A stretch of DNA of 39,980 nt from Halobacteriales archaeon QH_10_67_22 (GCA_003021305.1 PXQN01000003.1:1-39980), one strand, 5' to 3'. Shown: positions 4,486-39,551, counted from the first letter of the stretch. Notes: a model not told the origin generated them from the letters alone. Translations and numbers: made by a program.

Positions 4486-4592
4486 TACGGTCGTGCGTAC
4501 CCAATTTCGGCAGTGTCGATGAGGATCGGCGTTTCGGACCACGGAGAGGGTCTTCTGTTTCATGGGAACGAAAAGAATTACGCACGACCGTA
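4486..4592 (+). mobile_element. Family A palindromic MITE-like element (copy A1)
   Basis: 107 bp; TIR TACGGTCGTGCGTA / TACGCACGACCGTA type; flanked by TGA (4483-4485, the stop codon of the 3631 gene) and TGA (4593-4595). Confidence 0.85.
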
Positions 4593-4612
4593 TGACCGCC
4601 AGCGGGAGCGGT

Positions 4613-6403
4613 TCACATCAGCGACTCGAACTCGCCGAGGAACTCGTCGTAGGTGTCGATGGCGGCCTCGACGGGTCCCGAGGCGGTCATGTCGACGCCG
4701 GCGTCGTCGAGCAGTTCCAGCGGGTACTTCCGGGAGCCACTCGAGAGGAACTTCCGATAGCGCCGCGCGGCGGGTTCGCCCTCCTCCAGGATCTCGCCCG
4801 CCAGGGCGACGGCCGCGGAGATGCCGGTCGCGTACTGGTAGACGTAAAAGGCCCGGTAGAAGTGGGGAATGCGCATCCACTCGCGGGCGATACGGTCGTC
4901 GACGGCCGCGTCGGGGTAGTAGGTCGCCTTCAGGTCGCGATAGCGGTCGTCGAGGCGGTCGGGGGTGAGCGCCTCGCCGGACTCCTCGAGTTCGTGAGTG
5001 CGGTGTTCGAACTCGGCGAACATGGTCTGGCGAAACAGCGTCGACCGGAACCGTTCGAGGTACTGGTTGAGAACGTGCCGGCGGAGCCGTTCGTCCTCGA
5101 CGACGTCGAGCAGGTGGTGGGTCAGCAGCGTCTCGTTGACCGTCGAGGCCACCTCGGCCACGAAGATCTCGTAACCGCTGTAGATGTAGGGCTGTTCGTC
5201 GCTGGTCAACTCGGAGTGCATCGAGTGGCCGAGTTCGTGGGCCAGCGTGAACATCGAGGCCACGTCGTCCTGGTAGTTCATGAGGATGTACGGCTGTGAG
5301 TCGTAGGTCCCCCCGGAGTAGGCACCGGACTGCTTGTTCTCGGTCTCGTAGACGTCGACCCAGCGCGATTCGAGTCCCTCCGCGAGTCGGTTCTGGTAGG
5401 CCTCGCCCAGCGGCGCGACGGCCTCGGTGACGTACTCGCGGGCCCGGTCGTACTCCACGTCTGGGCTCTCGCCGTCGACCATCGGGACGTAGAGGTCCCA
5501 CATCCGGAGTTCGTCGCCGCCGACGTGGCGGCGTTTCAACTCGGCGTGACGGGCCAGCACGTCGAGTTCGTCGTTGACGGTCTCGACGAGCGTGTCGTAC
5601 ACCTCGACGGGGACGTTCGGGCCGTCGAGGGCGGCCTCGCGGGCAGTGTCGTAGTTCCGGGCGCAGGCGAGTTTCACGTCGGTCTTGACGCTGTTGCGGT
5701 AGGCCGTCGCGACGGCGTTGCGGTAATTGGCCCACTCGTCGTAGAACGTCTCGTACACCTCATGGCGGAACTCGCGGTCGGGGTGTTCCTGGAGCGTCGT
5801 GAAGTTGTTCAGCGTGATACGCCGGGGCTCGCCGTCGGGGTCGTCGACGGCGGGGAACTCCATGTCGGCGTTGGTAAGCATATCGTAGACGTCACCGGTC
5901 GAGCCCAGCACCTCGCCCAGGTCGGCCAGCAGGTTCTCGACCTCGGCCGACCGGGTGTGGGGTTTGGTCCGCAACACGTCGTCGAAGTAGTGCTCGTACG
6001 TCTCCAGGTCGGGGTTGTCGGCGACGAACGAGTCGATCGTCTCGCGGCCGGCGTCCTGGATCGCCGGTTCGATGAAGCTGGCAGCGCTGTTGGCCTCGGA
6101 GTGGAGCGACTGCGCGCGGGCGGTCAGTGCCTGGTAGTGGTCGTCGGCGGTGTCCTCGTCGCGGCGCAGTCTGGCGTAGGTGGCCACGTTGCCCACCTGG
6201 CGCATCACCGTCTCGTAGGTCTGGAGCGTCTCGTGGAGGGTGTCGGCGTCGTCGGTCGCTCGCCCCTCGAACGCCCGGAGGTCATCGACCAGCGCCCCCG
6301 CGTCCTCGAAGGCGTCCTCCCAGGCGTCGTCGTCCGGATAGAGGGCTTCGAGGTCCCACTTGTACTGCTCGTCGACGTCGCCGCGCTCGGGAACCGAACT
6401 CAT
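4613..6403 (-). CDS. pepF: Oligoendopeptidase F (M3B)
   Basis: 596 aa; HELGHSMHSEL zinc motif, PepF-like throughout. Confidence 0.97.
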   Translation of the reverse strand: MSSVPERGDVDEQYKWDLEALYPDDDAWEDAFEDAGALVDDLRAFEGRATDDADTLHETLQTYETVMRQVGNVATYARLRRDEDTADDHYQALTARAQSLHSEANSAASFIEPAIQDAGRETIDSFVADNPDLETYEHYFDDVLRTKPHTRSAEVENLLADLGEVLGSTGDVYDMLTNADMEFPAVDDPDGEPRRITLNNFTTLQEHPDREFRHEVYETFYDEWANYRNAVATAYRNSVKTDVKLACARNYDTAREAALDGPNVPVEVYDTLVETVNDELDVLARHAELKRRHVGGDELRMWDLYVPMVDGESPDVEYDRAREYVTEAVAPLGEAYQNRLAEGLESRWVDVYETENKQSGAYSGGTYDSQPYILMNYQDDVASMFTLAHELGHSMHSELTSDEQPYIYSGYEIFVAEVASTVNETLLTHHLLDVVEDERLRRHVLNQYLERFRSTLFRQTMFAEFEHRTHELEESGEALTPDRLDDRYRDLKATYYPDAAVDDRIAREWMRIPHFYRAFYVYQYATGISAAVALAGEILEEGEPAARRYRKFLSSGSRKYPLELLDDAGVDMTASGPVEAAIDTYDEFLGEFESLM

Positions 6404-6465
6404 GGACCGGCGTTTGGACCGGACCCGTGTAAACCTTTCAGTGGCTTCCGGAGTCCGGGGTTTTA

Positions 6466-6543
6466 TAGTGATTATTGTAGCGATTTACCGGTACGACCAC
6501 GCAGTCGTGCGGTCGATCCGGAACAGACCGACAATAATCACTA
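6466..6543 (+). mobile_element. Family C palindromic MITE-like element (C1)
   Basis: 78 bp; TAGTGATTATTGT...ACAATAATCACTA; flanked TTA (6463-6465) / TTA (6544-6546). Confidence 0.85.
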
Positions 6544-6570
6544 TTAGTCGCCGGACCACAGACGCGCTGT

Positions 6571-7929
6571 ATGGACGAGGTTGAGGACGCGACTGCGCGG
6601 GCACTGGGTCGGGCCTGGCTGGACGAGACACCCTGGACGCTGCTGACACGGCTGACGGAACTCGACGGCCGACTCGGGGGTCACCCCGGCGAACGCCGGG
6701 CGGCGACGCTCGTCGCCGACACCCTTCAACGAGCAGGGGTCCGGGACGTGACCGAACAGTCGTTCGAGATGAACCGATGGGACCGGCACGGCGCCGACCT
6801 GGCGGTCACGGTCCCCGACCGGGGCGTCGAGCGGTCGTTCGAGGCCGTCGCGTTGCCGTACTCGCCGGCGGTCGAGACGGACGCGCCGCTCGTCGACGTA
6901 GGCCACGCGACGCCGGCGGAACTCGACCGGGCCGACGTCGCCGGCGCGGTAGTCGTGGCCGACACCGCCACGCCCGCGGGGTTCGACCGGCCGTACCACC
7001 GCGACGAGAAGGCGGCCCGTGCGGCCGCGGCCGGCGCCGAGGGGTTCGTCTTCGTCAACCACGTCCCCGGCCAATTGCCACCGACCGGGTCGCTCGGCTT
7101 CGGCGCCGAGGCCCCCCTGCCGGGGCTGGGCGTCAGCAAGGAGACCGGCGCCTGGCTCCGCGAGTACGCCGACGAGGGGGGACGGGCTCGCGTCCGCATC
7201 GACGCCGAGACGGAACCCGGGACGAGTCACAACGTGGTCGGCACGCTCGGACCCGACGACCCCGACGGGGACGGCGAGGTGGTCGTCCTCGCACACTTCG
7301 ACGCCCACGACGTCGGCGAGGGAGCACTTGACAACGGCTGTGGCGTCGCGACGCTGGCGGGGATAGTGGCGATACTCGCGGACCTCCCGCTGCAGCGGCG
7401 CGTCCGGGTGGCCGCCGTCGGCTCGGAGGAACTGGGCCTGCTGGGGAGTCGGGCCCTGGCCGACCGCCTGGTGCCGACTGCCGTGCACGCGGTCGTCAAC
7501 GTGGACGGCGCCGGCCGCTACCGCGACCTGAACGCCCTGACCCACGGGTCGGACGCGCTGGCCGAACTGGTCGAACGCGTCGTCGGTGAAGTCGGCCACC
7601 CGGTGGACACCGAGACCCGGCCCCATCCCTACAGCGACCACTGGCCGTTCCTCCAGGCCGGTGTGCCGGCCCTCCAGCTCCACAGCGACGACCCGAACGC
7701 CGACGGGCCGTGGGACCGCGGGTGGACCCACACTCGCGCCGACACGCGGGACAAGACCGACCGCCGGAACCTCCGGACCCACGCCATGCTCGGCGCACTG
7801 CTGGTCCGTGCGGTGGCGGCGACCGACCTCCCGCGGGTCGAGACCGCGGGGCTCCGGGAGCGACTCGAAGCGACCGGCGCGGCCGAGGGGATGCGCGTCT
7901 CGGGTATCTGGCCCGACGAGTGGGACTAG
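6571..7929 (+). CDS. M28 family zinc aminopeptidase
   Basis: VVVLAHFDAHDVGEGALDNGCGVATL...GSEELGLLGSRALAD...PHPYSDHWPFLQAGVPALQLHS: M28 metal-binding signatures. Confidence 0.93.
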   Translation: MDEVEDATARALGRAWLDETPWTLLTRLTELDGRLGGHPGERRAATLVADTLQRAGVRDVTEQSFEMNRWDRHGADLAVTVPDRGVERSFEAVALPYSPAVETDAPLVDVGHATPAELDRADVAGAVVVADTATPAGFDRPYHRDEKAARAAAAGAEGFVFVNHVPGQLPPTGSLGFGAEAPLPGLGVSKETGAWLREYADEGGRARVRIDAETEPGTSHNVVGTLGPDDPDGDGEVVVLAHFDAHDVGEGALDNGCGVATLAGIVAILADLPLQRRVRVAAVGSEELGLLGSRALADRLVPTAVHAVVNVDGAGRYRDLNALTHGSDALAELVERVVGEVGHPVDTETRPHPYSDHWPFLQAGVPALQLHSDDPNADGPWDRGWTHTRADTRDKTDRRNLRTHAMLGALLVRAVAATDLPRVETAGLRERLEATGAAEGMRVSGIWPDEWD

Positions 7930-8759
7930 ATCCCGTCGCGAAGGCGTCCGGCGACGCGAGCGCGCGCCAGCAACCCGGCGTGGCGCGAGCCGAAGGTGTC
8001 ACGGGCGTCCGCGGCGGCCCGCTCGTCGACCGAAAACTCACAGTCGTAGGCGACGTCCCAGAGGACGAGCGGGTCGGCCGGCGCCGGCGCGACCCCGTCG
8101 GGACCGTCCAGGGGTTCGGCTCCCAGCACCCGGTCGACCGCATCCAGGTCCGCGTCGCAGCGCCCGACGGCGGCGACGAGCGAGACGACCCGCCGGACGA
8201 GCTGGCGCGCGAACCCGCCGGCCCGGAGCGTGACGACGAAAAACGCCCCGTCGCGGCTCGCGGTCGCGTCCAGGTCCCGGACGGTGCCGGTCTCGTCGGG
8301 CGTGAGGTTGTGGAAGTCGTGTTCGCCGGCCAGCAGTGCCAGGGCACCGCGGGCCCGGTCGTCGTCGAACCCCGGCCCCATGGAGGGGTCACGAGGCGCG
8401 TACAGGTGGTAGACATACTCCCGGGCGCGGGCGTCGTGGGTCGCGTGGAAGCCGGGGGCGACGTCGGCACCCGCCCACGCCCGGACCGAATCGGGGAGTT
8501 CGCCGTTGAGCGCCCGCGGCGTGAGCCAGTCGGGCGCGTCGAGGGCGACGGTCTGGGCTCGCGCCGAGACGCCGGCGTCGGTCCGGCCGGCCGCTGCGTA
8601 CCCGTCCGGTTTCGCGGCTGCCTCGTCGAGCACGTCGAGCGCCCGGAACGCGTCGAAGATGGCATCCTCGACGGTCGGGACGTCGGGCTGGCGCTGGAAC
8701 CCGTGGAACGGCCGGCCGTCGTAGGCCAGGCGGACGGCCCGTCTGCGCTCGTCGGTCAC
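7926..8759 (-). CDS. truA: tRNA pseudouridine synthase A
   Basis: RLAYDGRPFHGFQRQPDVPTVEDAI...AAGRTDAGVSA: TruA catalytic motif; convergent overlapping stop (CTAG) with M28 gene. Confidence 0.95.
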   Translation of the reverse strand: MTDERRRAVRLAYDGRPFHGFQRQPDVPTVEDAIFDAFRALDVLDEAAAKPDGYAAAGRTDAGVSARAQTVALDAPDWLTPRALNGELPDSVRAWAGADVAPGFHATHDARAREYVYHLYAPRDPSMGPGFDDDRARGALALLAGEHDFHNLTPDETGTVRDLDATASRDGAFFVVTLRAGGFARQLVRRVVSLVAAVGRCDADLDAVDRVLGAEPLDGPDGVAPAPADPLVLWDVAYDCEFSVDERAAADARDTFGSRHAGLLARARVAGRLRDGI

Positions 8760-8897
8760 GGTGGCGGTTCGCGCGACCCCCGCTTGTGCGTTTCGGGGGA
8801 GACGGCCACCGGTCGGCCAGCGCGTCCCGCCGTCGGTTCGACTGCCGGTCGGGACTCATACGTGGACGAACGGATGGACCGTCAATCCTGACGCGAA

Positions 8898-10211
8898 CTA
8901 CTGAGCGAACTCGTCGTCGGTCGGGCGTTCGCGGTCGCCGGGGAACGCCTCGACGGGGACGTTGGTCTGGTCGCCCGAGGCCATGTCCTTGACCGTTATC
9001 TCGTCGTCTTCGAGGTCGCGTTCGCCCACGATGACGACCGTCTCGGCGTCGATCGAGTCGGCGTAGTCCATCTGGGCGCCAAAGGAGCGGCCGGAGACGT
9101 CGGTCTCGACGACGTGGCCGCGCTCGCGCAACTCGCGGGCGATGCGGGCCGCCACCGGGCGGGTGTCGCCGACCTGGAGGACGTAGTAGTCGGAGGTGAT
9201 CCCCTCGCCGGGCCAGGCGTCGTGGACCTGCAAGAGCAGGGGAAGCGTCGAGTTCATCACGCCGATGCCGACGCCGACGGCCGGGGTCGGCTGGCCGCCG
9301 AACGCCTCGATGAGGTGGTCGTAGCGGCCGCCGCCGAAGATAGACCGGGAGACCTCGCCGGAGGCGTCGAAACACTCGAAGACGACGCCGGTGTAATAAT
9401 CCAGCCCCCGGGCGGTCGTCAGCGAGACGTCACAGTACTCCCGGACCCCGAAGTCCTCGGCGGCCGCCAGCACCGCTTCGAGGTTCTCGACGGCCGCCGC
9501 CAGGGCCTCGCTGTCGGCGAAGTCCGTCAGCGCCGAGCGGTCCCGGTCGCCAGCCAGCAACACGTCGTCGAACTCGCGGGCCTGGTCGGCCGAGAGGCCC
9601 GCCTCGACGAGCAGGTCGACGTACTCGGTCTCGTCGACTTTGGCGCGCTTGTCGACCGCCCGGACCGCCGCGGGGACGTCCACGTCGGCGTCGAACGACC
9701 GCAGGAGTTCCCCCAGGATGTCCCGGTGTGAGACACGGAACTCGAACTCGGAGCCGTCGAGGCCGAGCGCGGTCAGCGAGTCGGCGGCGAACGCGAGGAT
9801 TTCGGCGTCGGCGTCGGGGTCACTCGACCCGAAGATGTCGGCGTTGGTCTGGTAGAGCTCGCGATAGCGGCCCTGCTGGACCTGCTCGTAGCGCCAGAAC
9901 GGCCGCGTCGAGAACCACTTCAGGGGTTTCGAGAGCGCCTGCTGTCTGGCGACGACCATCCGGGCGACCGTCGGCGTCAGTTCGGGCGTCAGTGTGACGT
10001 GGCGCCCGCCCCGGTCCTCGAAGTCGTACAGTTCGTCGACGATGTCCTCGCCGCTCTTGTCGGTCCACATCTCGGCCGGTTCCAGCGCGGGCGTCGCCGT
10101 CTCGCGAAAGCCGTACCGGCGAGCGGTCTCCTCGATGGTGTCGATGACCTCGCGCCGGGGAGCCATCTCCGCGGGGTAGAAGTCGGTGAACCCCTTCAGT
10201 CCGTCGTACAT
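8898..10211 (-). CDS. hisS: Histidyl-tRNA synthetase
   Basis: MYDGLKGFTDFYPAEMAPRREV...RPFWRYEQVQQGRYREL...ARGLDYYTGVVFE...GGGRYDHLI. Confidence 0.97.
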   Translation of the reverse strand: MYDGLKGFTDFYPAEMAPRREVIDTIEETARRYGFRETATPALEPAEMWTDKSGEDIVDELYDFEDRGGRHVTLTPELTPTVARMVVARQQALSKPLKWFSTRPFWRYEQVQQGRYRELYQTNADIFGSSDPDADAEILAFAADSLTALGLDGSEFEFRVSHRDILGELLRSFDADVDVPAAVRAVDKRAKVDETEYVDLLVEAGLSADQAREFDDVLLAGDRDRSALTDFADSEALAAAVENLEAVLAAAEDFGVREYCDVSLTTARGLDYYTGVVFECFDASGEVSRSIFGGGRYDHLIEAFGGQPTPAVGVGIGVMNSTLPLLLQVHDAWPGEGITSDYYVLQVGDTRPVAARIARELRERGHVVETDVSGRSFGAQMDYADSIDAETVVIVGERDLEDDEITVKDMASGDQTNVPVEAFPGDRERPTDDEFAQ

Positions 10212-12272: not shown

Positions 12273-12381
12273 TACTGTCGGACACAAGCAAGTCGACACT
12301 CGATACTTCGGTTGGCGGTCTCCGAGACGTCTCGATGGTGAACCACCGACGAGCGTGTTCACGTACTTGTGTCCGACAGTA
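12273..12381 (+). mobile_element. Family B palindromic MITE-like element (B1)
   Basis: 109 bp; TACTGTCGGACACAAG...CTTGTGTCCGACAGTA; flanks TTA/TCA. Confidence 0.85.
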
Positions 12382-15171: not shown

Positions 15172-16449
15172 TCACACTGAGATTATCTCGATCGGGACCG
15201 GCGTGAAACAGAGCAGTCCGAGCACGAGCGTCAGGACGCCCAGCGCTTTGCGCCTGGCGTCGACCGGGTCGTCGCGGACGGGCGTCGCCGGGCCGGCGTA
15301 GGCCAGCGCGATCGCGATGACGCCCCAGAACGCCCAGAGGACGACCGCGTTCGTAGCGTCGCGGGCGACGTAGACGTACCCCGCGAGGGCGAACAGTCCG
15401 GCCGGGACGGCCGCGGCGACGGTCTCCTGGCGCGGCCCGAGCACCGCCCGGACGACGTGGCCGCCGTCGAACTGGCCGACCGGCAACAGGTTGAGAAACG
15501 TCACGAACATCCCGACCCAGCCGCCGAAGATGACGGGATTGGCCGCAAGCGTCGGGTCCTCGTAGGACAGCGGCTGACCGGTCACGACAGCCAGCCCCTG
15601 CAACAGCAGCGGATAGTTGAACCGGAAGGCGGTGGTCGACTGGCTGTCGAGGACCCGTTCGGGAACCGTGATCGGGTCCAGTGACAGCCCGATGACCGTC
15701 ACCACGACGGTCGCGACGAGACCGGCCAGCGGTCCCGCGGCACCGATGTCGAACAGCGCCTTCCGGCTCGGGATCCGGCCACGCATCCGGATGACCGCGC
15801 CCATCGTCCCGATCAGCGACGGGAAGGGGATGAAATAGGGCAGGCTGGCGTCGACGTCGTAGTAGCGGATCATCACGTAGTGACCCATCTCGTGGACGGC
15901 CAGCACGCCCAGGATGGCGGCCGCGAACGGCCAGGCCGAAAGCAGGTCCAGCGGCCCCGTCACCTGGATGTAGTACCACTGGGTGCCCACCAGCAGCGTC
16001 GAGAGTACCGTAACGACGAAAAAGACCAGGTTCGTCCACGGAATGCCGTCGATGTGAGGGCCCCGGGGCTCGGCGACGAGCACGTACTGGGAGCGAGCGG
16101 GACCGACGGGCGACCCCGCGCCGTTCGGTTCGAGCGACGCCCCCCGTGGGGACGCTCCGGGCCCCAGTTCCGACCCGGACGGTTCGACCGTCAGGTCCGA
16201 GTCTGTCGGTTCGCCGGCCGAACGCGTCTCGTCGAGCGAGACGTCGACCTGCGCGCGGGTCGACAGTGACACCTCGTAGCCGGCGTCGTGAAACAGCGGC
16301 CACAGTTCGCGTTCGAGGGCCCCAACCGACGTCTGTGGCGTGCCGAGATAGTAGACCGTGTCGTCGTGTGTCCGTACGTCGGCGACGCGAAACGTGGTGC
16401 CGACCTCCGTCGCCGACGGCGGGTCGGCCGACGTGGACCCCTCACTCAT
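15172..16449 (-). CDS. Site-2 protease family (M50) membrane metalloprotease
   Basis: LAVHEMGHYVMIRYYDVDASLPYFIPFP...FLNLLPVGQFDGGHVVRA: HExxH and NxxPxxxxDG; start inferred at MSEGSTSADPP. Confidence 0.92.
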   Translation of the reverse strand: MSEGSTSADPPSATEVGTTFRVADVRTHDDTVYYLGTPQTSVGALERELWPLFHDAGYEVSLSTRAQVDVSLDETRSAGEPTDSDLTVEPSGSELGPGASPRGASLEPNGAGSPVGPARSQYVLVAEPRGPHIDGIPWTNLVFFVVTVLSTLLVGTQWYYIQVTGPLDLLSAWPFAAAILGVLAVHEMGHYVMIRYYDVDASLPYFIPFPSLIGTMGAVIRMRGRIPSRKALFDIGAAGPLAGLVATVVVTVIGLSLDPITVPERVLDSQSTTAFRFNYPLLLQGLAVVTGQPLSYEDPTLAANPVIFGGWVGMFVTFLNLLPVGQFDGGHVVRAVLGPRQETVAAAVPAGLFALAGYVYVARDATNAVVLWAFWGVIAIALAYAGPATPVRDDPVDARRKALGVLTLVLGLLCFTPVPIEIISV

Positions 16450-17228: not shown

Positions 17229-17308
17229 TAGTGATTATTGTAGGTCTGTTCCGGATCGACCGCACGACTGCGTGCAGTCGTACCGGTAAATCGCTACAAT
17301 AATCACTA
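17229..17308 (-). mobile_element. Family C palindromic MITE-like element (C2)
   Basis: 80 bp; flanked TCA (17226-17228) / TCA (17309-17311). Confidence 0.88.
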
Positions 17309-18089: not shown

Positions 18090-19872
18090 GGACGGGGACG
18101 ACGACACGGGCCCGGTCGCGGTGTCGAGTCCCGGCGACGAGGACGGGAACGGTGACGACCGCTACGCGTTCTGGGCCGACGAGGTCGCCGACGCGGTCGA
18201 GGCCCGGAGCCCCACGGAGCCGGTCGTGATCAAGGGTGGTATCTCCCCCTCTGGTGTCCCACACCTCGGCAACGTCAACGAGATCACTCGCGGCTACTTC
18301 GTCGCCGAGGTGTTGCGCGACCGGGGGTGGACGGTCCGGCAGGTGTTCACCACCGACGACCGCGACCCGCTCCGGAAGCTCCCCCGGAAGCTCGCGGACC
18401 TGGACGGGAACATCGTCGACCTGGGCGACGTGGACGCGGGCGCGCTCGGCCGGAACCTCGGGCACGCCTACACGGACATCCCCGACCCCTTCGGCTGCTG
18501 TGACTCCTACGGCGCGCACTTCTCGGCGCTCATCGGGGCGTCGGCCGACCTGCTGGGCGTGCCGATCGACGTCGTCTCGACGACCGAACTGTACGAGTCG
18601 GGTCGGTTCGACGACGTGGTCGAACACGTCCTCGCGAACCGGGACCGCGCCCGGGAGGTGCTGGGCCAGTACCAGGACAAGGTCGACGCCGACTACGCCC
18701 CCTTCAACCCGGTCTGTGGGTCGTGTGGGAAGATCACGGAGACGGTGACCGGCGTCGATATCGACGCCCGGACGGTCGCCTACCGGTGTACGGACATCGA
18801 GGCCGGCGAGCGGACCATCGAGGGGTGTGGCCACGAGGGGGAAGCCACCTTCCGCGAGGGGAAACTCCCCTGGCGGTTCGAGTGGCCCGCCCAGTGGGAC
18901 GTGCTGGGGGTCGACTTCGAACCGTTCGGCAAGGACCACGCCGAGGGCTCCTGGCCCTCCGGCGTCGACATCGCCGAGAACGTCCTCGGGACCGACCCCC
19001 CCGAACCGATGGTCTACGAGTGGTTCACGCTCGACGACGAGCCCTTTTCGTCCTCCGAGGGCAACGTCGTCCTCGTCCACGACGTCCTGGAGACCCTGGA
19101 ACCCGAAGTCCTGCGCTTTTTCTTCGCGAAAGACCCCAACCGGGCGCGGGACTTCAGCGTCGAACGCCTGGACCAGCTCGTCGACGAGTTCGACCGCGCC
19201 GAACGGCTCTACTACGACGAGGAGACCGGCACCGACGACGAGACCCGGCGGGCCGACAGGGTGTACCCGTACCTGTTCGACCTGGACGACGTTCCCGACG
19301 ACGCGCTCGCGGCGGGCGACGTGACCGTCGACCCGGCCGCGTTCGACCACGACGACCCCGACCACAGGCGCCAGCGCCGGACCTTCCTCGACGAGACGTT
19401 CACAGACCGGGTGCGACTCCCCTACACGTTCGCGGCCGTCCTCGGGATGTTCGACGACGAGGCCGCCCGCCTCGAAGCCGCGCGGGCCCAGAACCACGTC
19501 ACCGACGCCGACCCCGACTGGGCGGTCACGGACGCCTTCGAGCGCGTGGCCCTCGCCAGCGAGTGGGCGACCCGGACCGACAACGAGTACAACTACAGCG
19601 TCCAGCGGGGGTCGGCCCCGGCCGTCGACGTCGACGACGAAACTGCAGCGGCACTGGACGAACTCGCCGGGTTCGTCGCCGACGGCGCCGACGGCGAGGC
19701 GATCCAGGGCGAGATCTACGAGACAGCAAAGCGTCACGGGCTGGACGTCGGGGACTTCTTCGCCGCCGGCTACCGCCTGTTTTTCGACGACGACGAGGGG
19801 CCACAGCTGGGCTATTTCCTCGCGAAACTCGACCGCGAGTTCGTCGTCGACCGGTTGCGCCGCGAGCGGTGA
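18082..19872 (+). CDS. lysS: Class I lysyl-tRNA synthetase
   Basis: GISPSGVPHLGNVNEI (HIGH), zinc cysteines, FSSSEGNVV (KMSKS-like); overlaps pyrH stop. Confidence 0.96.
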   Translation: MSEDGDDDTGPVAVSSPGDEDGNGDDRYAFWADEVADAVEARSPTEPVVIKGGISPSGVPHLGNVNEITRGYFVAEVLRDRGWTVRQVFTTDDRDPLRKLPRKLADLDGNIVDLGDVDAGALGRNLGHAYTDIPDPFGCCDSYGAHFSALIGASADLLGVPIDVVSTTELYESGRFDDVVEHVLANRDRAREVLGQYQDKVDADYAPFNPVCGSCGKITETVTGVDIDARTVAYRCTDIEAGERTIEGCGHEGEATFREGKLPWRFEWPAQWDVLGVDFEPFGKDHAEGSWPSGVDIAENVLGTDPPEPMVYEWFTLDDEPFSSSEGNVVLVHDVLETLEPEVLRFFFAKDPNRARDFSVERLDQLVDEFDRAERLYYDEETGTDDETRRADRVYPYLFDLDDVPDDALAAGDVTVDPAAFDHDDPDHRRQRRTFLDETFTDRVRLPYTFAAVLGMFDDEAARLEAARAQNHVTDADPDWAVTDAFERVALASEWATRTDNEYNYSVQRGSAPAVDVDDETAAALDELAGFVADGADGEAIQGEIYETAKRHGLDVGDFFAAGYRLFFDDDEGPQLGYFLAKLDREFVVDRLRRER

Positions 19873-19892
19873 TACGGTCGTGCGTACCCAAT
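19872..19892 (+). mobile_element. Truncated family A left end (A2)
   Basis: ATACGGTCGTGCGTACCCAAT identical to left end of A1; begins at lysS TGA stop. Confidence 0.7.
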
Positions 19893-21758: not shown

Positions 21759-21838
21759 TAGTGATTATTGTAGCGATTTACCGGTACGACCGAACGATTG
21801 CGTGCGGTCGATCCGGAACAGACCGACAATAATCACTA
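21759..21838 (+). mobile_element. Family C palindromic MITE-like element (C3)
   Basis: 80 bp; flanked TGA (21756-21758 = stop codon of M50 gene) / TGA (21839-21841). Confidence 0.88.
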
Positions 21839-22175: not shown

Positions 22176-22266
22176 ACCCTCATATACTGACCGACAGAGG
22201 CTCTGATAGATATTCGCCGGACCCGAGGCGACGGCGAATTCTATCAAACGTTCTGTCGGCCAGTAT

Positions 22267-22482
22267 ACGGTCGTGCGTACCTACTTTCTGCAGTGTCGGT
22301 TCGGATCGGCGTTTCGGACCACGGGGACAGTCGTCTGTTATACTGTCGGACACAAGCGATGCAACCGTCGAGTGACTGTTCCGACCGGTATAGGTCTCTC
22401 GATGGCCGAAACTCGACACGTGTGTTCACGTACTTGTGTCCGACAGTATACGTGGGCACAAAAAGAAGTACGCACGACCCAC
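22267..22482 (+). mobile_element. Family A element (A3) interrupted by a family B element
   Basis: Left part 22267-22340 and right part 22451-22482 join to match A5 (33421-33527); right terminus decayed. Confidence 0.85.
22341..22448 (+). mobile_element. Family B palindromic element (B2), nested in A3
   Basis: 108 bp; TACTGTCGGACACAAG...CTTGTGTCCGACAGTA; inserted at the TTA of CTGTTACGTGGG of family A. Confidence 0.88.
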
Positions 22483-24546: not shown

Positions 24547-24626
24547 TAGTGATTATTGTAGCGATTTACCGGTATGACCGTACGAACGCGTGCGGTCGAT
24601 CCGGAACAGACCGACAATAATCACTA
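24547..24626 (+). mobile_element. Family C palindromic MITE-like element (C4)
   Basis: 80 bp; flanked TGA (24544-24546 = stop codon of 22543 gene) / TGA (24627-24629). Confidence 0.88.
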
Positions 24627-26436: not shown

Positions 26437-26543
26437 TACGGTCGTGCGTAATTCTTTTCATGCCCACGTAATAGACGACCGTCCCCGTGGTCAGAAACGC
26501 CACTCCGCACCGACACTGCGGAAATTACGTACGCACGACCGTA
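26437..26543 (-). mobile_element. Family A palindromic MITE-like element (A4)
   Basis: 107 bp; abuts TGA stop of 26056 gene (26434-26436) and TCA (=TGA stop, minus strand) of the SufU gene (26544-26546). Confidence 0.88.
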
Positions 26544-27070: not shown

Positions 27071-27179
27071 TACTGTCGGACACAAGTACGTGAACACGCT
27101 TGTCGGTGTGTCACCATCGAGACGTCTCGGAGACCACCAAACGAAGCATCGAGTGTCGGCTTGCTCGTGTCCGACAGTA
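27071..27179 (-). mobile_element. Family B palindromic MITE-like element (B3)
   Basis: 109 bp; flanked TCA (27068-27070) / TCA (27180-27182). Confidence 0.88.
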
Positions 27180-27182
27180 TCA

Positions 27183-27262
27183 TAGTGATTATTGTAGCGA
27201 TTTGCCGGTACGACCGCACGATTGCGTGCGGTCGATCCGGAACAGACCGACAATAATCACTA
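27183..27262 (+). mobile_element. Family C palindromic MITE-like element (C5)
   Basis: 80 bp; flanked TCA (27180-27182, shared with B3) / TCA (27263-27265 = minus-strand TGA stop of the ferredoxin gene). Confidence 0.88.
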
Positions 27263-27985
27263 TCAGTCGTCGGCGTAGGCCTGTTCGAACGGCCGGGGCG
27301 GGAGCAGCAGGTCCTCCAGTTCCGGTACGTCCTTGACGTTGTAGACGACTTTCAACTCGGGCGTCGTCGGGATGCCGTTACAGGACAGCTGGAACCCGCG
27401 GGCGGCCAGGTCGTCGGGGAGGATGGTGTCGACGCGGGGCGCGAGCGACCCCTCGGTGAGATACACCGCGCAGTTCGCACAGGCCCCGCCCCGGCAGGCG
27501 AAGGGCCAGGCGAACCCGCGACGTTCGGCCGCTTCGAGCAGCGACTCCCGGGGTTCGACCCGGAACTCGCCGTAGTCGACCTCGCCCAGGTCGGCGCCGG
27601 CCGCCTTCGCGAACAGGTCGGGATCGTCCAGCTCCCAGCCGTGGTCGTCCAGCACCGCGTAGTTGAGATACTCGACGTGGGTACCTGTCCGGGGCGTTCC
27701 AGTCTCCCACTGGCTCGCGTCCGACCCATCCGTCGTCTCCGACCTGGCTCTGCCCGTGGGCCTGTTCGTCGCGCTGCTCCCGGTTCCTGTCGCGTCCGTA
27801 CCGTCGTCGAGCCGCGGCTCGTGACCCTCTATTATCTCCTCGTAGGCGACCTGAACCCGTTGAAACTCCTCGACGGTGCCGCCCTGGTCCGGGTGGGCCT
27901 CCTTGACACGCTCCCGGTAGGCGTCGTTGAGCGTGTCCTCGTCGACCCCCGGCTCCACTCCCAGCACCTCGTAGGGCGATTCCAC
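27263..27985 (-). CDS. J-domain / 2Fe-2S plant-type ferredoxin fusion protein
   Basis: N-term MESPYEVLGVEPGVDEDTLNDAYRERVKEAHPDQGG (J-domain, HPD); C-term VEYLNYAVLDDHGWELDD...FACRGGACANCAVYL...QLSCNGIP haloarchaeal ferredoxin. Confidence 0.92.
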   Translation of the reverse strand: MESPYEVLGVEPGVDEDTLNDAYRERVKEAHPDQGGTVEEFQRVQVAYEEIIEGHEPRLDDGTDATGTGSSATNRPTGRARSETTDGSDASQWETGTPRTGTHVEYLNYAVLDDHGWELDDPDLFAKAAGADLGEVDYGEFRVEPRESLLEAAERRGFAWPFACRGGACANCAVYLTEGSLAPRVDTILPDDLAARGFQLSCNGIPTTPELKVVYNVKDVPELEDLLLPPRPFEQAYADD

Positions 27986-30678: not shown

Positions 30679-30782
30679 TACTGTCGGACACAAGTACGTG
30701 AACACGCTCGTCGGTGTTTCACCATCGAGACGTCTCGGAGACCGCCAACCGAAGTATCGAGTGTCGACTTGCTTGTGTCCGA
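30679..30782 (-). mobile_element. Family B palindromic element (B4), one terminus lost
   Basis: Left flank TCA; right terminus reads ...GTGTCCGA then CTA (stop codon of the 30783 gene), losing CAGTA. Confidence 0.8.
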
Positions 30783-31073
30783 CTACTCTATCGTGAACGC
30801 CGGTTCGGTGACGGACTCGCTTTTGCACTCGGGACAGCGCGCCGGGCGGTTGACGAGGTCGTCGAACCCGTCGAAGCCACAGTCCTCACATTCCGGCGGA
30901 GCGACCAGCAGCGTCTCGTCGGTCGGTTCCAGCGACCGGGCGATGTGGTCGACGTGCTGGAGGGCATCGTCGGTCGACACCTCGAACTCCCGGGCGAGCG
31001 CGCCCGCAGCCAGCGGTTCGCCGCGCAACCTGTCGGCGATACGCTGGCGGGTCGTCCGGCTCGCCTCGCGCAT
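30783..31073 (-). CDS. HTH plus zinc-ribbon transcriptional regulator-like protein
   Basis: MREASRTTRQRIADRLRGEPLAAGALAREFEVSTDDALQHVDHIARSLEPTDETLLVAPPECEDCGF...CPECKSES. Confidence 0.85.
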   Translation of the reverse strand: MREASRTTRQRIADRLRGEPLAAGALAREFEVSTDDALQHVDHIARSLEPTDETLLVAPPECEDCGFDGFDDLVNRPARCPECKSESVTEPAFTIE

Positions 31074-32278: not shown

Positions 32279-32387
32279 TACTGTCGGACACAAGTACGTG
32301 AACACACTCGTCGGTGTTTCACCATCGAGGCGTCTCGGAGACCGCCAACCGAAGTATCGAGTGTCGACTTGCTTGTATCCGACAGTA
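32279..32387 (-). mobile_element. Family B palindromic MITE-like element (B5)
   Basis: 109 bp; flanks GTA/TTA. Confidence 0.85.
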
Positions 32388-33408: not shown

Positions 33409-33420
33409 GCGAGCGCGTCA

Positions 33421-33527
33421 TACGGTCGTGCGTAACTAATTTCTGCAGTGTCGGTTCGGATCGACGTTTCGGACCACGGGGACAGTCGTCTGTTACGTGG
33501 GCACAAAAAGAATTACGCACGACCGTA
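33421..33527 (+). mobile_element. Family A palindromic MITE-like element (A5)
   Basis: 107 bp; flanked TCA (33418-33420) / TCA (33528-33530). Confidence 0.88.
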
Positions 33528-33577: not shown

Positions 33578-33904
33578 TCAGTCCCGCGGCGTGCCCGCGC
33601 TCTGGACTGCCCAGCCGCCGTCGACGCCACAGGCATCGCGGACCTCGTACTCGACGGTCGTCGCTTCCGTGACGGTGTCACCACCCTCGACACGCTCGAT
33701 ACGCAACGGCACGTCTAGGGTGTCGCCACAGCAGCCGACGCCGACGAACTCCTCGACGGTCCGGCCCGCCTCGACAGTCCCGAGGGTCTTGCCCAGGTAC
33801 GCACGGAAAGGGTCGTCCTCGACCGTCTCCCGCCCCCACCGACTCAGGTCGGCGGGATAGGAGACGACCACCCTGGTCGCCGCTCCGTCGTCTGTATCGT
33901 TCAT
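33578..33904 (-). CDS. Conserved haloarchaeal hypothetical protein
   Basis: MNDTDDGAATRVVVSYPADLSRWGRETVEDDPFRAYLGKTLGTVEAGRTVEEFVGVGCCGDTLDVPLRIERVEGGD... Confidence 0.8.
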   Translation of the reverse strand: MNDTDDGAATRVVVSYPADLSRWGRETVEDDPFRAYLGKTLGTVEAGRTVEEFVGVGCCGDTLDVPLRIERVEGGDTVTEATTVEYEVRDACGVDGGWAVQSAGTPRD

Positions 33905-33984
33905 ATTCCCGATAGGCGCGCGACATCAAAAGCCGTTGGGTCAAAGAGGGGGCGTCTCGACCAGCGGGTACCAACAACCGCTCA

Positions 33985-34092
33985 TACTGTCGGACACGAG
34001 CAAGTCGACACTCGATACTTCGGTTGGCGGTCTCCGAGACGTCTCGATGGTGAAACACCGACGAGCGTGTTCACGTACTTGTGTCCGACAGT
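33985..34092 (+). mobile_element. Family B palindromic MITE-like element (B6)
   Basis: 108 bp; flanks TCA/TAA. Confidence 0.85.
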
Positions 34093-34592
34093 ATAACAGT
34101 CTCGTCGCCCGTCCGGCACGCAGAGACCGTTTCGCTCCCGGATCAGAGAAAAGCGTGTTGACCTATTCGTGTCCGAGTGGATATCGGGTCAGAAAAAACG
34201 GTGGGCGGGAGCACCGGGACTGCAGCGGCAGGTCTGGCCGACCGGGTGGCGGAGCGTTGCCGACCGCGAGAGCGGGCAGGTACGGATACGGCAACGGTCC
34301 AGTCGGCCAGGGGATCCGTGTCGAGTGTTCGGGGCGTGCGGGCGGCAGGCGCCGGGTAGAGCGCGCCGTCCGCACCCGAACCGAGGGACGGCGCCGACAA
34401 AAACCCGGCTGAAACTCAAACCCGCGTTTGACCTTCGAGGACGAAACGGTTAACGGTCGGTTGGCCCAAGGTTTCCCCGATGCAGACGCGCCCCGCCCTC
34501 CAGGCTCGGTCCGGTCCCTTCCGGCCGCGTCCACCCGGTCGCCGCGGCGACGGACAGGCACACGACAGCACGCCGCCGGGCACCGACTGACG

Positions 34593-35654
34593 ATGCGGGC
34601 CGGGTCGCTCTTCGCAGTCGCACTGCTCGCGGTCGTGTTCGTCACCGGGGTCGTCACGCCGGTCGCCGGCACCGGCTCGGCCGCGCTGCCCGACGCTGCG
34701 TCGGCTGTGGAGACCGGCAGCGACTCGGTGCTGGCGTCCGGCCCGGCGGACACTGGCAACGTCCACGGGAACCACGTGGCCGTCGACCCGCAGGTGTCCG
34801 CCGACGGGACCGTCGTCGCCGAGACGGTCGCGACCCTCGCGTCCGGCTTTCTCGTCCTCAAGGCCGACGACGGCGGCCGTCCGGGCGAACCGGTCGGGCA
34901 CACGTACCTGGACGGCGTCGGCTTCAGGACGGACGTCTCCGTCGCACTCGACGCTGCGGCCGGAACGGACCACCGCAGGCTGTGGGCGGTGGTCCACTTC
35001 GACGACGGCGACGGCGAGTTCGACCCGGCGGCCGACCCGTCGGGGGCCGACCGGAACCCCGCCGCGAGACAGTCGTTCGCACTCGGGGACGGCGACCGTC
35101 CGGTCCACGTCCTCGCACGCGAATCCGACCCGCTGGCCACAGACGACGGCGCGCTCACGGTCCGGCGCGTCTCGCTCGCCCGCGACGGCTATCTCGTCGC
35201 CCATCCGATAGACGGCGACCGCGTCGTCGGAAGACAGTCCCTCTCGGCGGGTCGCCACGACGGCGTCCGACTCACCCTCGACGAGTCGTTTCTCGACGCG
35301 AGCGACTCGCGGTTCCGCGTGCGACTGGTCGCCTACCGCGACGATGGCGACGGCGAGTTCGACGCCGACGACAGTCCGGTCCGCGTCGGCGACGCCGTCG
35401 TCGGGACCGACGTCGTCGTCGACCGGGAACGCGACCCGGCCGCGACGGACGACGGCCCCTCGATACTCACCCCGACGCCCACGCCAGCGAGCGCCGAGAA
35501 CGTGACTGCCGGAACCGACGCGACCGGGGGGACAGCGGCCGACGGCACCGACCCCACCGACGCGACTGGTCCCGGGTTCGGCGTCGCCGCCACGGCACTC
35601 GCGGTCGTGGTCGCACTCGCAGGACTGGCCCTGTCGGGGCGCCGTCGGCCGTAA
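34593..35654 (+). CDS. PGF-CTERM-type secreted surface protein with two tandem repeated beta domains
   Basis: Signal MRAGSLFAVALLAVVFVTGVVTPVAG; T-rich linker; C-term GPGFGVAATALAVVVALAGLALSGRRRP; repeated ...(W/L)(A/V)..(Y/H)(F/R)DDGDGEFD units. Confidence 0.85.
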   Translation: MRAGSLFAVALLAVVFVTGVVTPVAGTGSAALPDAASAVETGSDSVLASGPADTGNVHGNHVAVDPQVSADGTVVAETVATLASGFLVLKADDGGRPGEPVGHTYLDGVGFRTDVSVALDAAAGTDHRRLWAVVHFDDGDGEFDPAADPSGADRNPAARQSFALGDGDRPVHVLARESDPLATDDGALTVRRVSLARDGYLVAHPIDGDRVVGRQSLSAGRHDGVRLTLDESFLDASDSRFRVRLVAYRDDGDGEFDADDSPVRVGDAVVGTDVVVDRERDPAATDDGPSILTPTPTPASAENVTAGTDATGGTAADGTDPTDATGPGFGVAATALAVVVALAGLALSGRRRP

Positions 35655-35655
35655 C

Positions 35656-36021
35656 TCAGAGTCGCTCGTTTTTCATGATGACCCGGTCGCCGCGGCCGCC
35701 GTTCCAGACGATCCGGACCAGCGACCCCTCGCTGGCGGGGACCGTCGTGTTCTCGCCCGGCGTGACGGGGTCGGAGAAGTCGGTGATCCGTTCGAGGCTG
35801 TCGACGGTCACGCGGAGGTTCTCGGTCCGGACCGGGTCGCCACTGGCGTGTGTGACCTGGACGTGACTGTCGTTGACCCGTTCGACCGCCCACTCCGTCT
35901 CCGGGGCGTCCGCGCTGTCGGGCGGGTCGAAGTTGAGTGCGAGGACGACGACGGCGAACAGAAGCGCTACTACCAGTACCACCCCGACGATGTTGAGTAT
36001 CCGGTCGCCGTCCTCCAGCAT
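35656..36021 (-). CDS. Single-pass membrane-anchored extracellular protein
   Basis: MLEDGDRILNIVGVVLVVALLFAVVVLALNFDPP then beta-rich acidic domain. Confidence 0.75.
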   Translation of the reverse strand: MLEDGDRILNIVGVVLVVALLFAVVVLALNFDPPDSADAPETEWAVERVNDSHVQVTHASGDPVRTENLRVTVDSLERITDFSDPVTPGENTTVPASEGSLVRIVWNGGRGDRVIMKNERL

Positions 36022-36111
36022 AGACGCGGGTTGCTCCCCGACCTATATGAGGGTGCTGTCTCGTGGGCGACCTGGGCCAGCCCAACGCCTTCGCGCTCGG
36101 TGGCGGACTCA

Positions 36112-36191
36112 TAGTGATTATTGGAGCGATTTACCGGTACGACCGCACGACTGTGTGCGGTCGATCCGGAACAGACCTACAATAATCACTA
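36112..36191 (+). mobile_element. Family C palindromic MITE-like element (C6)
   Basis: 80 bp; flanked TCA (36109-36111) / TCA (36192-36194). Confidence 0.88.
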
Positions 36192-36343
36192 TCAGTCGGG
36201 GGACGGTCGTCGTCGCCGGCGGGCCAGGGCCGAACGTCCGACTATCCGGGCCGATAGCGCGACGAACACCGGCGCTGACCGGCCGGACGCGGACGGACCG
36301 CGTATTCGAAAACCCTATACTCGCATCCTTCGACGCCTAGGGC

Positions 36344-37360
36344 ATGAGCCAAGGAGAGAACGCTGTTCGCATCGGGATCAACGGGTTCGGCCGCATCGGT
36401 CGCAACGTGTTCCGTGCGTCGCTGGGTGACCCGCGGGTGGAGATCGTCGGGATCAACGACGTGATGGACGACGCCGACATGGCCTATCTCGCCGAGTACG
36501 ACACCATCATGGGACACCTGGAGGGCGTCGACCTCGAGGAGGGGTCGCTGACCGTCGACGAGTCCGACTTCGAGGTCCCGCTGTACAACGAGACCGACCC
36601 GACGCAGCTGCCCTGGGAGGAACTGGACGTCGACGTCGCCTTCGAGTGTACGGGCATCTTTCGGACGTACGACGACGCAAGCCAGCACCTGGCGGCGGGC
36701 GCGGACACGACGCTCATCTCCGCGCCGCCGAAAGGCGAGAAGCCGGTTCCCCAGCTCGTCTACGGCGTCAACCACCACGAGTACGGCGGCGAGGACGTCG
36801 TCTCGAACGCTTCCTGTACGACCAATTCCATCACGCCGGTCGCGAAGGTCCTCCACGAGGAGTTCGGCATCGAGGCCGGCCAGCTGACGACCGTCCACGC
36901 CTACACCGGTTCGCAGAACCTCATCGACGGCCCCAAGGGCAAGACCCGCCGCGGCCGGGCCGCCGCCGAGAACATCGTCCCGACGAGCACGGGCGCCGCA
37001 CAGGCGGCGACGGACGTGTTGCCCGAACTCGAGGGGCGACTCGACGGGATGGCGATGCGCGTCCCCGTCCCCAACGGCTCGATCACCGAGTTCGTCACCA
37101 GCCTCGAGGCGGAGGTCACCGAGAGCGACGTCAACGGCGCGTTCCGCGAGGCCGCCCAGGGCGACCTGGAGGGCGTGCTCGGCGTCACCGACGACGAACT
37201 CGTCTCCTCGGACATCCTCGGCGTCCCCTACTCCACCTACGTCGACCTCGAGTCGACCAACGTCGTCGGCGGCCTGACGAAGGTGCTGACCTGGTACGAC
37301 AACGAGTACGGCTTCTCGAACCGGATGCTCGACCTGGCCGAGTACGTCGACGAGAACTGA
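36344..37360 (+). CDS. gap: Type I glyceraldehyde-3-phosphate dehydrogenase
   Basis: RIGINGFGRIGRNVFRA...SNASCTTNSITPVAKVLHEEFGIEAGQLTTVHAYTGSQNLIDGP...WYDNEYGFSNRMLDL. Confidence 0.97.
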   Translation: MSQGENAVRIGINGFGRIGRNVFRASLGDPRVEIVGINDVMDDADMAYLAEYDTIMGHLEGVDLEEGSLTVDESDFEVPLYNETDPTQLPWEELDVDVAFECTGIFRTYDDASQHLAAGADTTLISAPPKGEKPVPQLVYGVNHHEYGGEDVVSNASCTTNSITPVAKVLHEEFGIEAGQLTTVHAYTGSQNLIDGPKGKTRRGRAAAENIVPTSTGAAQAATDVLPELEGRLDGMAMRVPVPNGSITEFVTSLEAEVTESDVNGAFREAAQGDLEGVLGVTDDELVSSDILGVPYSTYVDLESTNVVGGLTKVLTWYDNEYGFSNRMLDLAEYVDEN

Positions 37361-37370
37361 CCACTACAGC

Positions 37371-37604
37371 GTGGCCCTCACGGAGAAGCTCCGCGACATC
37401 GATTCGTTCAACCGGCCGACCCTCGCGAAGGTGCTGGTCGTCGCCGCCATCCCCGTCGCCGCGGGCCTGGCCGCGACGGCCGCCGCGAGACTCCGGCTGT
37501 CCTACGGCGGCCGCGCCGGCGTCACGATGCTGCTGACCGCGCTCTTGCTGGTCGCCGCGTTCGTCGGTATTGCCGCCCTCGACGACGCCGTCTGGGGCGA
37601 GTGA
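37371..37604 (+). CDS. Small membrane protein, GTG start
   Basis: VALTEKLRDIDSFNRPTLAKVLVVAAIPVAAGLAATAAARLRLSYGGRAGVTMLLTALLLVAAFVGIAALDDAVWGE; 10 nt after gap stop. Confidence 0.75.
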   Translation: MALTEKLRDIDSFNRPTLAKVLVVAAIPVAAGLAATAAARLRLSYGGRAGVTMLLTALLLVAAFVGIAALDDAVWGE

Positions 37605-37658
37605 GCCGACCGCAGGCCGACCTCCTCGACGAACAGGCGGCCACCGGCCGCAGTTCGT

Positions 37659-37955
37659 TCACACCCCGTTCTCGGAGACGATGACGAGCACCGTCTCGCG
37701 ATCGCGGCCCATCGGCTGGACGGTCCAGCCCTGCGTTTCGACGACCGCCCGGAGGTCCTCGGGCACCAGGTCCGGGTCGGCACCACCGCAGACCACCCGC
37801 GGGACGAAGCGCCGCCAGCCCGTCGGTTGCTCACGGCGGTACTCCTCGGGGACCGGAACCCGCCCGCTTGCCTCCCGGTAGCCCTCGGTTCGGCCGATAG
37901 AGTCGTAGCCCAGTTCGTGCAGGTCCGCGAGAATAGCGTCCAGTTCGTCGGTCAT
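37659..37955 (-). CDS. Conserved haloarchaeal hypothetical protein
   Basis: MTDELDAILADLHELGYDSIGRTEGYREASGRVPVPEEYRREQPTGWRRFVPRVVCGG... Confidence 0.78.
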   Translation of the reverse strand: MTDELDAILADLHELGYDSIGRTEGYREASGRVPVPEEYRREQPTGWRRFVPRVVCGGADPDLVPEDLRAVVETQGWTVQPMGRDRETVLVIVSENGV

Positions 37956-38144
37956 CTCTCGGTCCGGTCCGTATCGGGACTCCCGCGAACGAAAAACTTT
38001 CGACGGTGTGACACGAACTGGCACGTATGGCCGGTTCTCGGACACTCTGGGTGAGAGACGGGACGCTGGTCGGGGGGAGGGCACCGCGACTCGCGTCTCT
38101 CGGCGGGGGACTCGGGGGCGCTGCTGGCCGGCGCAAGCGCCTCA

Positions 38145-38253
38145 TACTGTCGGACACAAGCAAGTCGACACTTGATACTTCGTTTGGCGGTCTCCGAGAC
38201 GTCTCGATGGTGAAACACCGACGAGTGTGTTCACGTACTTGTGTCCGACAGTA
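38145..38253 (+). mobile_element. Family B palindromic MITE-like element (B7)
   Basis: 109 bp; flanked TCA (38142-38144) / TCA (38254-38256). Confidence 0.88.
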
Positions 38254-38301
38254 TCACTCGCCTTCGTGCTCGTCTTCGCCGTCGTCGCCGTGTCGGACTG
38301 A

Positions 38302-38408
38302 TACGGTCGTGCGTAATTCTTTGTATTCCCACGAAACAGAAGACTGTCTCCGTGGTCCGAAACGCCGATCCTCACCGACACTGCCGAAATTGGGTACGCA
38401 CGACCGTA
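38302..38408 (-). mobile_element. Family A palindromic MITE-like element (A6)
   Basis: 107 bp; flanked TGA (38299-38301) / TGA (38409-38411). Confidence 0.88.
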
Positions 38409-38411
38409 TGA

Positions 38412-38491
38412 TAGTAAGTATTGTCGCGATGTACCGGGACGGCCGCACGACTGCGTGCGGTCGATCCGGAAGGGATCGACAATACTCACGA
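38412..38491 (+). mobile_element. Divergent family C palindromic element (C7)
   Basis: 80 bp; TAGTAAGTATTGTCG...CGACAATACTCACGA; flanked TGA (38409-38411, shared with A6) / TGA (38492-38494). Confidence 0.8.
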
Positions 38492-38535
38492 TGACCGCCC
38501 ACGTTTTTAAGACCGTGGGAGACGCGCTCATCGAC

Positions 38536-38913
38536 GTGAAACGAACAGTCAGTACCGACGCAGCACCGGCCGCCGTCGGGGCGTACAGCCAGGCCACCGA
38601 GACCGACGACCTCGTGTTCACGGCCGGGCAGATCCCCCTGACTCCCGAGGGTGACCTGCTCGACGACGCCGCTATCGACGTCCAGACCCAGCAGGCCCTG
38701 GAGAACGTCGCCGCCGTCCTCGCGGCCGCCGACGCCGACATGGACGACGCCCTGAAGGTGACGGTGTACCTCGACGACATCGAGGACTTCGACGCGATGA
38801 ACGACGCCTACGAGACGTTCTTCGACGACGACCCCCCGGCCCGGAGCGCGGTCGGCGTCGACGCCCTCCCCAAGGGTGTCGGCGTCGAGGTCGAGGCCGT
38901 CGCCACCAAATGA
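38536..38913 (+). CDS. ridA: RidA family (YjgF) enamine/imine deaminase
   Basis: GTG start; VGAYSQATETDDLVFTAGQIPLTPEGDL...TQQALENVAAVLAAADADMDDALKVTVYLDDIEDFDAMNDAYETFF. Confidence 0.95.
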   Translation: MKRTVSTDAAPAAVGAYSQATETDDLVFTAGQIPLTPEGDLLDDAAIDVQTQQALENVAAVLAAADADMDDALKVTVYLDDIEDFDAMNDAYETFFDDDPPARSAVGVDALPKGVGVEVEAVATK

Positions 38914-39227
38914 CCGACGACGCCGCGACGAGCGGGGGCGAAGGGGCGACGGACGCCGCCCCGGGCGACCGCACGGACGGCGGCCCGGACGACGAGCGGT
39001 CGGGCGACCCGGTGTTGGCCCTCCCGCCGCGGGTCGCGTCGAGCGCGCTGTGGGGTGTGGTCGGCGGGCTCTCCTTTCTGGTCCTGGTCCAGGGGTACGA
39101 ACTGCTGGCCGACGCTGGCGTGTCGATCGCCGCCAAGTTCGTGGTCGCCGCGGTCGTGGCCGTCGTCGCGGGCGTCTCGACCCATCTCGCTCGCGGCCGC
39201 GTCCCGGTCGAGAACGAAAGGGATTAA
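38910..39227 (+). CDS. Small haloarchaeal membrane protein
   Basis: Overlaps ridA stop; acidic N-term and two hydrophobic segments. Confidence 0.75.
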   Translation: MTDDAATSGGEGATDAAPGDRTDGGPDDERSGDPVLALPPRVASSALWGVVGGLSFLVLVQGYELLADAGVSIAAKFVVAAVVAVVAGVSTHLARGRVPVENERD

Positions 39228-39255
39228 CGGAGCCATCGTGGATCCACGAACGCGG

Positions 39256-39339
39256 GCCAGGATGGCCGAATCTGGTAAGGCGCACGCCTGGAAAGCGTGT
39301 TCCCGTATGGGATTCTGGGTTCAAATCCCAGTCCTGGCG
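39256..39339 (+). tRNA. tRNA-Ser (anticodon GGA)
   Basis: GCCAGGA/TCCTGGC acceptor, CACGC-CTGGAAA-GCGTG anticodon arm, CCCGTATGGG long variable arm, CTGGGTTCAAATCCCAG T-arm. Confidence 0.95.
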
Positions 39340-39401
39340 TCCCACCGTTTTCCGCTCGGGGTCGCGAGCGACCCCCTCTCGCAAAACCGTAGGCGAAAAA
39401 G

Positions 39402-39464
39402 ACCGCCTCCGCGGGTCTTCGACCCGCTCCGGCGGTGAACCGCGCCTTGCGTCGCTCGGCGCGG
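39402..39464. repeat. Dual-hairpin motif (copy 2), downstream of tRNA-Ser
   Basis: ACCGCC..GCGGGTC ttc GACCCGC..GGCGGT then gaa then CCGCGCC(ttgcgtcgctc)GGCGCGG. Confidence 0.6.
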
Positions 39465-39471
39465 ATACTCA

Positions 39472-39551
39472 TAGTGATTATTGTCGGTCTGTTCCGGATC
39501 GACCGCACGACTGCGTGCGGTCGTACCGGTAAATCGCTACAATAATCACTA
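39472..39551 (-). mobile_element. Family C palindromic MITE-like element (C8)
   Basis: 80 bp; flanked TCA (39469-39471) / TCA (39552-39554). Confidence 0.88.

Follow-up and report, generated by a model that had tools for sequence, protein, structure and literature searches.

Probable IS630-driven MITEs with three-base target duplications in the genome of a halobacterial archaeon

Three families of short inverted-repeat elements, here called A, B and C, are scattered between the genes of Halobacteriales archaeon QH_10_67_22. They are MITEs by every test made, and they very probably belong to haloarchaeal transposases of the IS630 family (IS630-Tc1-mariner group), which would have moved them in trans into CTSAG targets. 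Direct observation covers their structure and target duplication, the nested and the empty sites, how many copies there are, which sequence is targeted, and the matching repeats on IS630 elements elsewhere. From these it appears that the IS630 enzymes in question did the moving, and that their source has since been lost from the host genome or lies in its unassembled part.

The window, meaning the whole stretch of 39,980 nucleotides that was analysed, holds 21 elements: 19 intact ones (4 of A, 7 of B and 8 of C), a split A and a single A end. They are listed below in order of family; no strand is assigned to any of them.

4486-4592: family A, 107 bp; duplication TGA/TGA, the left TGA being the stop of a DUF3891 ORF that ends at 4485
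19873-19890: family A, single end of a truncated copy, immediately behind TGA 19870-19872, the stop codon of lysyl-tRNA synthetase; right limit approximate
22266-22480: family A, interrupted by the B element at 22341-22448; flank GTA, right end degenerate
26437-26543: family A, 107 bp; flanks TGA/TCA
33421-33527: family A, 107 bp; duplication TCA
38302-38408: family A, 107 bp; duplication TGA, common to the C element at 38412
12273-12381: family B, 109 bp; flanks TTA/TCA; site empty in genome G138
22341-22448: family B, 108 bp, nested in A
27071-27179: family B, 109 bp; duplication TCA, common to the C element at 27183
30679-30787: family B; right end degenerate
32279-32387: family B; flanks GTA/TTA
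33985-34093: family B; flanks TCA/TAA
38145-38253: family B; duplication TCA
6466-6543: family C, 78 bp; duplication TTA; site empty in genome G136
17229-17308: family C, 80 bp; duplication TCA
21759-21838: family C; duplication TGA at the stop codon of an M50 peptidase gene
24547-24626: family C; duplication TGA at the stop codon of a chlorite-dismutase-domain gene
27183-27262: family C; duplication TCA, which is the minus-strand stop codon of the DnaJ/Fer2 gene at 27263-27985
36112-36191: family C; duplication TCA
38412-38491: family C, diverged; duplication TGA
39472-39551: family C; duplication TCA; near tRNA-Ser at 39256-39339

All 21 copies proposed in the sequence-only reading were thus located, and its counts of identical flanks (C 8/8, A 3/4, B 2/5) hold. 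Corrections concern the C element at 6466 (78 bp, not 80), the split A (starting at 22266) and the truncated A (starting at 19873). The window is free of transposase genes, as had been said, and a search of Rfam returned tRNA as the sole match. The description of the intergenic space as saturated is apt locally, but the window is unusual, being the densest stretch sampled: the rest of the sample would predict 5.2 intact copies here, and 19 are present (P = 3e-6). Intact elements are about 3.6 times richer here (1-39980) than in the rest of the sampled genome, and six of the sampled stretches (14.5-20 kb) held zero elements.

The host assembly is a haloarchaeal MAG of 2.52 Mb in 94 contigs, 77% complete. 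Exact A ends number 105+118 in the whole assembly, while B ends (109+95) and C ends (146+137) were counted with at most one mismatch; the reversed-pattern controls gave 0 in every case. These end counts indicate about 350 copies genome-wide. Statistics on intact copies come from an 810-kb sample of the host genome, which contained 120 of them: 33 of A (28 exactly 107 bp), 31 of B (108-109 bp) and 56 of C (54 exactly 80 bp), with mean identities within families of 87%, 86% and 94%, respectively. The elements are short (78-109 bp) and non-coding, and they carry terminal inverted repeats of 13-18 bp. Near-complete self-complementarity, which had been ascribed to all three families, describes C well (fold z about -8.6); in A (-4.0) and B (-4.5) it is confined to the terminal 14-18 bp. 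The families lack obvious common sequence in their interiors, but all three have TA tips, duplicate TSA and target CTSAG. On viral contigs, zero complete copies were found and matches to the ends occurred at chance only.

Identical TNA flanks border 92 of the 120 intact copies (A 27/33, B 17/31, C 48/56), far above chance, which upholds the three-base TNA duplication as first proposed; almost all of these flanks are TGA or TCA, so that TSA is far commoner than TNA in general. TA/TA flanks form a minority, mainly in family B (B 4/31, C 1/56). The target can be written as CTSAG: at position -1, A never occurs, T almost never, and C makes up 69-83%, and TSA is preferred over TWA (P = 0.002). Two nested insertions of B into A show what was duplicated. 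In one, the B copy at 22341-22448 of the window, GTTACG became GTTA[B]TACG with a 2-bp duplication of TA, and in the other a TCR site became TCG[B]TCA, a 3-bp duplication with one mismatch; hence the TA tips are part of the element itself. Some copies have TNA on both sides with a differing middle base, for example TGA/TCA (26437-26543, 12273, 33985 and others), which could possibly stem from recombination of one copy with another or from mismatch repair once the element was in place. Pairs of elements from different families also occur exactly 3 bp apart around one common TSA triplet, at 27071-27262 and 38302-38491 of the window and at 15677-15866 of another locus (L070), and this spacing indicates that one member of each pair used the other's duplicated target as its own insertion site.

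Comparison with related genomes also speaks for movement. The orthologous sites of the C element at 6466 and the B element at 12273 are empty in G136 and G138, respectively, so that copies at orthologous sites, as vertical inheritance would give, were not seen there; divergence of the flanks hides which bases were duplicated. In the closest genome (G137, same genus), A ends were absent while B ends numbered 9 and C ends 2, and this near absence marks the expansion as lineage-specific.

The driver is suggested by terminal repeats that the MITEs have in common with IS630 elements of other haloarchaea. The match is exact through the 12 bp of the A repeat; with C it covers 9 bp, and with B 9 bp or, at one end, 22/26 positions. 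Partners of A are IS630 elements of 1.04-1.15 kb in G138, G011 (two copies) and G116, which carry TACGGTCGTGCG at both ends and have duplications of TCA, TCA, TGA and TCA; elements with near-identical ends in G059 are flanked by TGA/TGA twice and TGA/TCA once. C-like partners with TAGTGATTA ends are IS630 elements of G101 (TTA, TCA, TCA) and G040 (TGA). For B, a partner in G140 has an intact 340-aa transposase, TACTATCGGCTGAA ends (also given as TACTATCGGCTGAAAG) and a TCA duplication; B-like elements in G100 and G013 end in TACTGTCGGCTGAA, and the IS630 element with 22/26 identity to B at one end lies in G137, of the same genus. The partner transposases match NF033545 and PF13358 (DDE_3), with an E value of 1.7e-71 to NF033545 for the intact G140 enzyme (L156). 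Plasmid copies of IS630 in Halorubrum ezzemoulense (two), Natribaculum breve, N. luteum, Halovenus salina, Halorubrum salinarum and Haloarcula sinaiiensis also fit TNA, where, as for all elements with weak repeats, the duplication helped to choose ends that then lay at a constant distance from the ORF within each group.

IS630 elements classically duplicate TA, in CTAG. The MITEs depart from this rule, with a TNA majority and a TA minority, and most of the partners also duplicate TNA, whereas ISNamo16 and its Halopenitus relatives fit TA. In a tree of 27 DDE domains, TNA elements occur in both the A/TAGTG and the TACT clades while the ISNamo16-like clade (L101) has TA, so that the length of the duplication looks labile. 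The elements fit the MITE class, with drivers that would be IS630 by transposase sequence but that fail the classical TA rule. In the proposed mechanism, the transposase would bind the TA-tipped terminal repeats in trans and insert the MITE into CTSAG with a 3-bp TSA duplication or, in a minority of events, with the classical 2-bp TA duplication. Against an IS630 driver, the B and C partners match the MITE repeats over only 9 bp at both ends. Searches with DDE_3 and P0001 found no IS630 transposase in the assembled 77% of the host genome, so the source may have disappeared or may lie in the part that did not assemble. In the A-type IS630 copies that were inspected the reading frame is split, and the one in G138 seems to have a deletion in its N-terminal HTH. 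A-type and TAGTG-type transposases (L149, L150, L146, L305-L307) have two overlapping frames with the DDE_3 half in the second, an arrangement that suggests programmed frameshifting.

Supply of the transposase in trans had been proposed from the start and is supported, but the transposase was then thought to come from the IS5 family, of the IS1031/IS427 type. A 3-bp TNA duplication is indeed reported for IS1031-type elements. However, none of the PF01609 (IS4/IS5-type) loci of the host and four relatives is bounded by the MITE repeats (TACGGTCGTGCG, TACTGTCGGACAC or TAGTGATTATTG), whereas IS630 elements carry the A repeat exactly, or C-like and B-like repeats, together with TNA duplications, and an IS5-type driver is now very improbable. 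Still less credible are REP-like palindromes moved by Y1/RAYT (IS200/IS605-type) transposases, a reading that would account for elements that are palindromic, intergenic and of high copy number; it is refuted by the target duplications, to which the long terminal repeats can be added, as IS200/IS605-type elements cause no target duplication (PMC3119063). Several candidates for a full-length IS were also rejected. In G003 (L031), what lies between two C ends spanning 2.28 kb is host genes and not a transposase, and single exact C ends (G032, G033, G023) and B ends (G058, G061, G080) proved to be MITEs, diverged or chance matches.

A different kind of rival concerns the position of the elements behind genes, where they might target, or be recruited to, stop codons as a functional 3′-end signal such as a terminator. 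The elements are strong palindromes, and with genes called by a simple codon model, which makes occupancy by gene context approximate, 47 of 544 TGA stop codons are occupied versus 32 of 1469 other intergenic TSA sites (P = 9e-10); TWA sites are occupied at 4/786 and genic TSA sites at 5/10608. Genes confirmed to end at an element's TGA encode lysyl-tRNA synthetase, an M50 peptidase, a chlorite-dismutase-domain protein and a DUF3891 protein. Once the 5-bp context is controlled, however, sites lying fewer than 30 bp behind a stop are occupied as often as the stop. In CTGAS context, occupancy is 28/154 at the stop itself, 9/48 within 30 bp past it and 8/187 farther away (18-19% vs 4%), and in S-TSA-S context it is 11/125 within 30 bp past the stop versus 32/270 at the stop (P = 0.49). 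Stop codons are therefore not recognised as such, and their targeting as a specific mechanism is rejected. WTGA stops, moreover, are not occupied, and the elements are absent from relatives, so that a 3′-end signal is unlikely. The target sequence together with tolerance at gene 3′ ends is enough to explain the preference: TGA stops in a GC-rich genome would be fortuitously good matches to the target, and purifying selection would purge copies from genes and promoters after insertion, leaving them to accumulate just behind stop codons. The elements had been placed in intergenic DNA only, and this is mostly so: of 106 placed copies, 5 lie within called genes, and for at least one of the five (26437) a longer alternative ORF has its stop there.

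Elements of 73-80 or 107-109 bp occur across many haloarchaeal genera. A family-blind scan of 795 kb from other haloarchaeal genomes, requiring a TNA duplication, TA tips and 13-bp repeats and allowing 40-600 bp, returned 22 elements of 73 (1), 78 (12), 79 (1), 80 (5), 107, 108 and 109 bp, with 0 for control tips; two of the 22 were previously known, the first stretches were taken at fixed coordinates, and some of the second set came from genomes in which such elements had already been seen. The same two length modes, with a few other lengths besides, had emerged when loci selected on other grounds were scanned earlier. More families of the same design were seen elsewhere in haloarchaea (L263-L302, L187, L212, L293-L295), including the following.

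TACGGTCGGTTGT: further family, 78 bp, in G138
TACTGCCGGCTGT: further family, 78 bp, in several genomes
TACGGTTTATTGT: further family, 79-80 bp
TAGTGACCGTTGT: further family, 78 bp, in G140

Twenty aligned elements of 78-80 bp with different ends have a common layout of TGTA, CCGG and a central palindrome. In the central stem, every one of the 14 pairs has changed on both sides and 83% of cells are paired; the structure as a whole lies far above shuffled and slid controls. One-sided pairs of the G-U type account for just about 11 of the 485 paired cells (about 2%), and this rarity suggests that the palindrome acts as DNA rather than RNA. Judged from the alignment, the palindrome of this class would thus be kept by compensatory changes at the DNA level; alternatively, quasi-palindrome correction during replication, instead of selection, could yield such changes. 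It is an even call whether all these elements form one old and widespread haloarchaeal non-autonomous superfamily of two lengths (about 78-80 and 107-109 bp), the small mobile repeats (SMRs) of Haloquadratum included, in which the repeats diversified in step with IS630 transposases that had shifted from CTAG/TA to CTNAG/TNA and the palindrome was kept by compensatory changes. If so, a maintained palindrome implies that transposition depends on how long the element is and how it folds internally, and the fixed lengths and covarying palindrome are directly testable by transposition assay. About one-fifth of suitable sites behind genes are occupied in the host genome, which makes it useful for measuring insertion tolerance.

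The closest published likeness is with the SMRs of Haloquadratum walsbyi, SMR-A of about 110 bp and SMR-B (HqIRS41) of 80 bp, whose mobilisation was called enigmatic, with no known driver (PMC3119063). By their published description they are also haloarchaeal and transposase-free, with prominent ITRs, similar lengths (here 107-109 and 78-80 bp) and several unrelated-looking families with common target habits. The present elements would offer such tiny repeats a concrete driver and a duplication rule. Unlike them, SMRs are described without target duplication, at no more than 54 copies per family and mostly inside IS605/PATE (PMC3119063). Haloquadratum PL47, which holds no SMRs, had zero elements of 60-140 bp with repeats of at least 13/14. 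The partners resemble IS630 elements such as ISNamo16 of Natrialba magadii in their NF033545/DDE_3 transposases, TA-tipped ends and size of 1.05-1.15 kb, but ISNamo16-like elements duplicate TA and the partners mostly TNA (TSA, some TTA) at CTNAG, an apparent prokaryotic shift within IS630 from a 2-bp to a 3-bp duplication with both kinds of relatives in one tree. A eukaryotic precedent for this switch is provided by Fot and Fot-like elements of the pogo superfamily, which went from TA to a 3-bp TAA duplication while some members still duplicate TA (PMC7386202). Fot and the IS630 partners fall in the same transposase group, although Fot elements are autonomous and duplicate TAA, not TSA. Finally, families A, B and C share with other prokaryotic MITEs, such as those of Haloquadratum (PMC3119063), their non-coding nature, terminal repeats that match an IS and a duplication set by the transposase, and they differ in being shorter and far denser, with two discrete lengths and, in the 78-80 bp class, a covarying internal palindrome.
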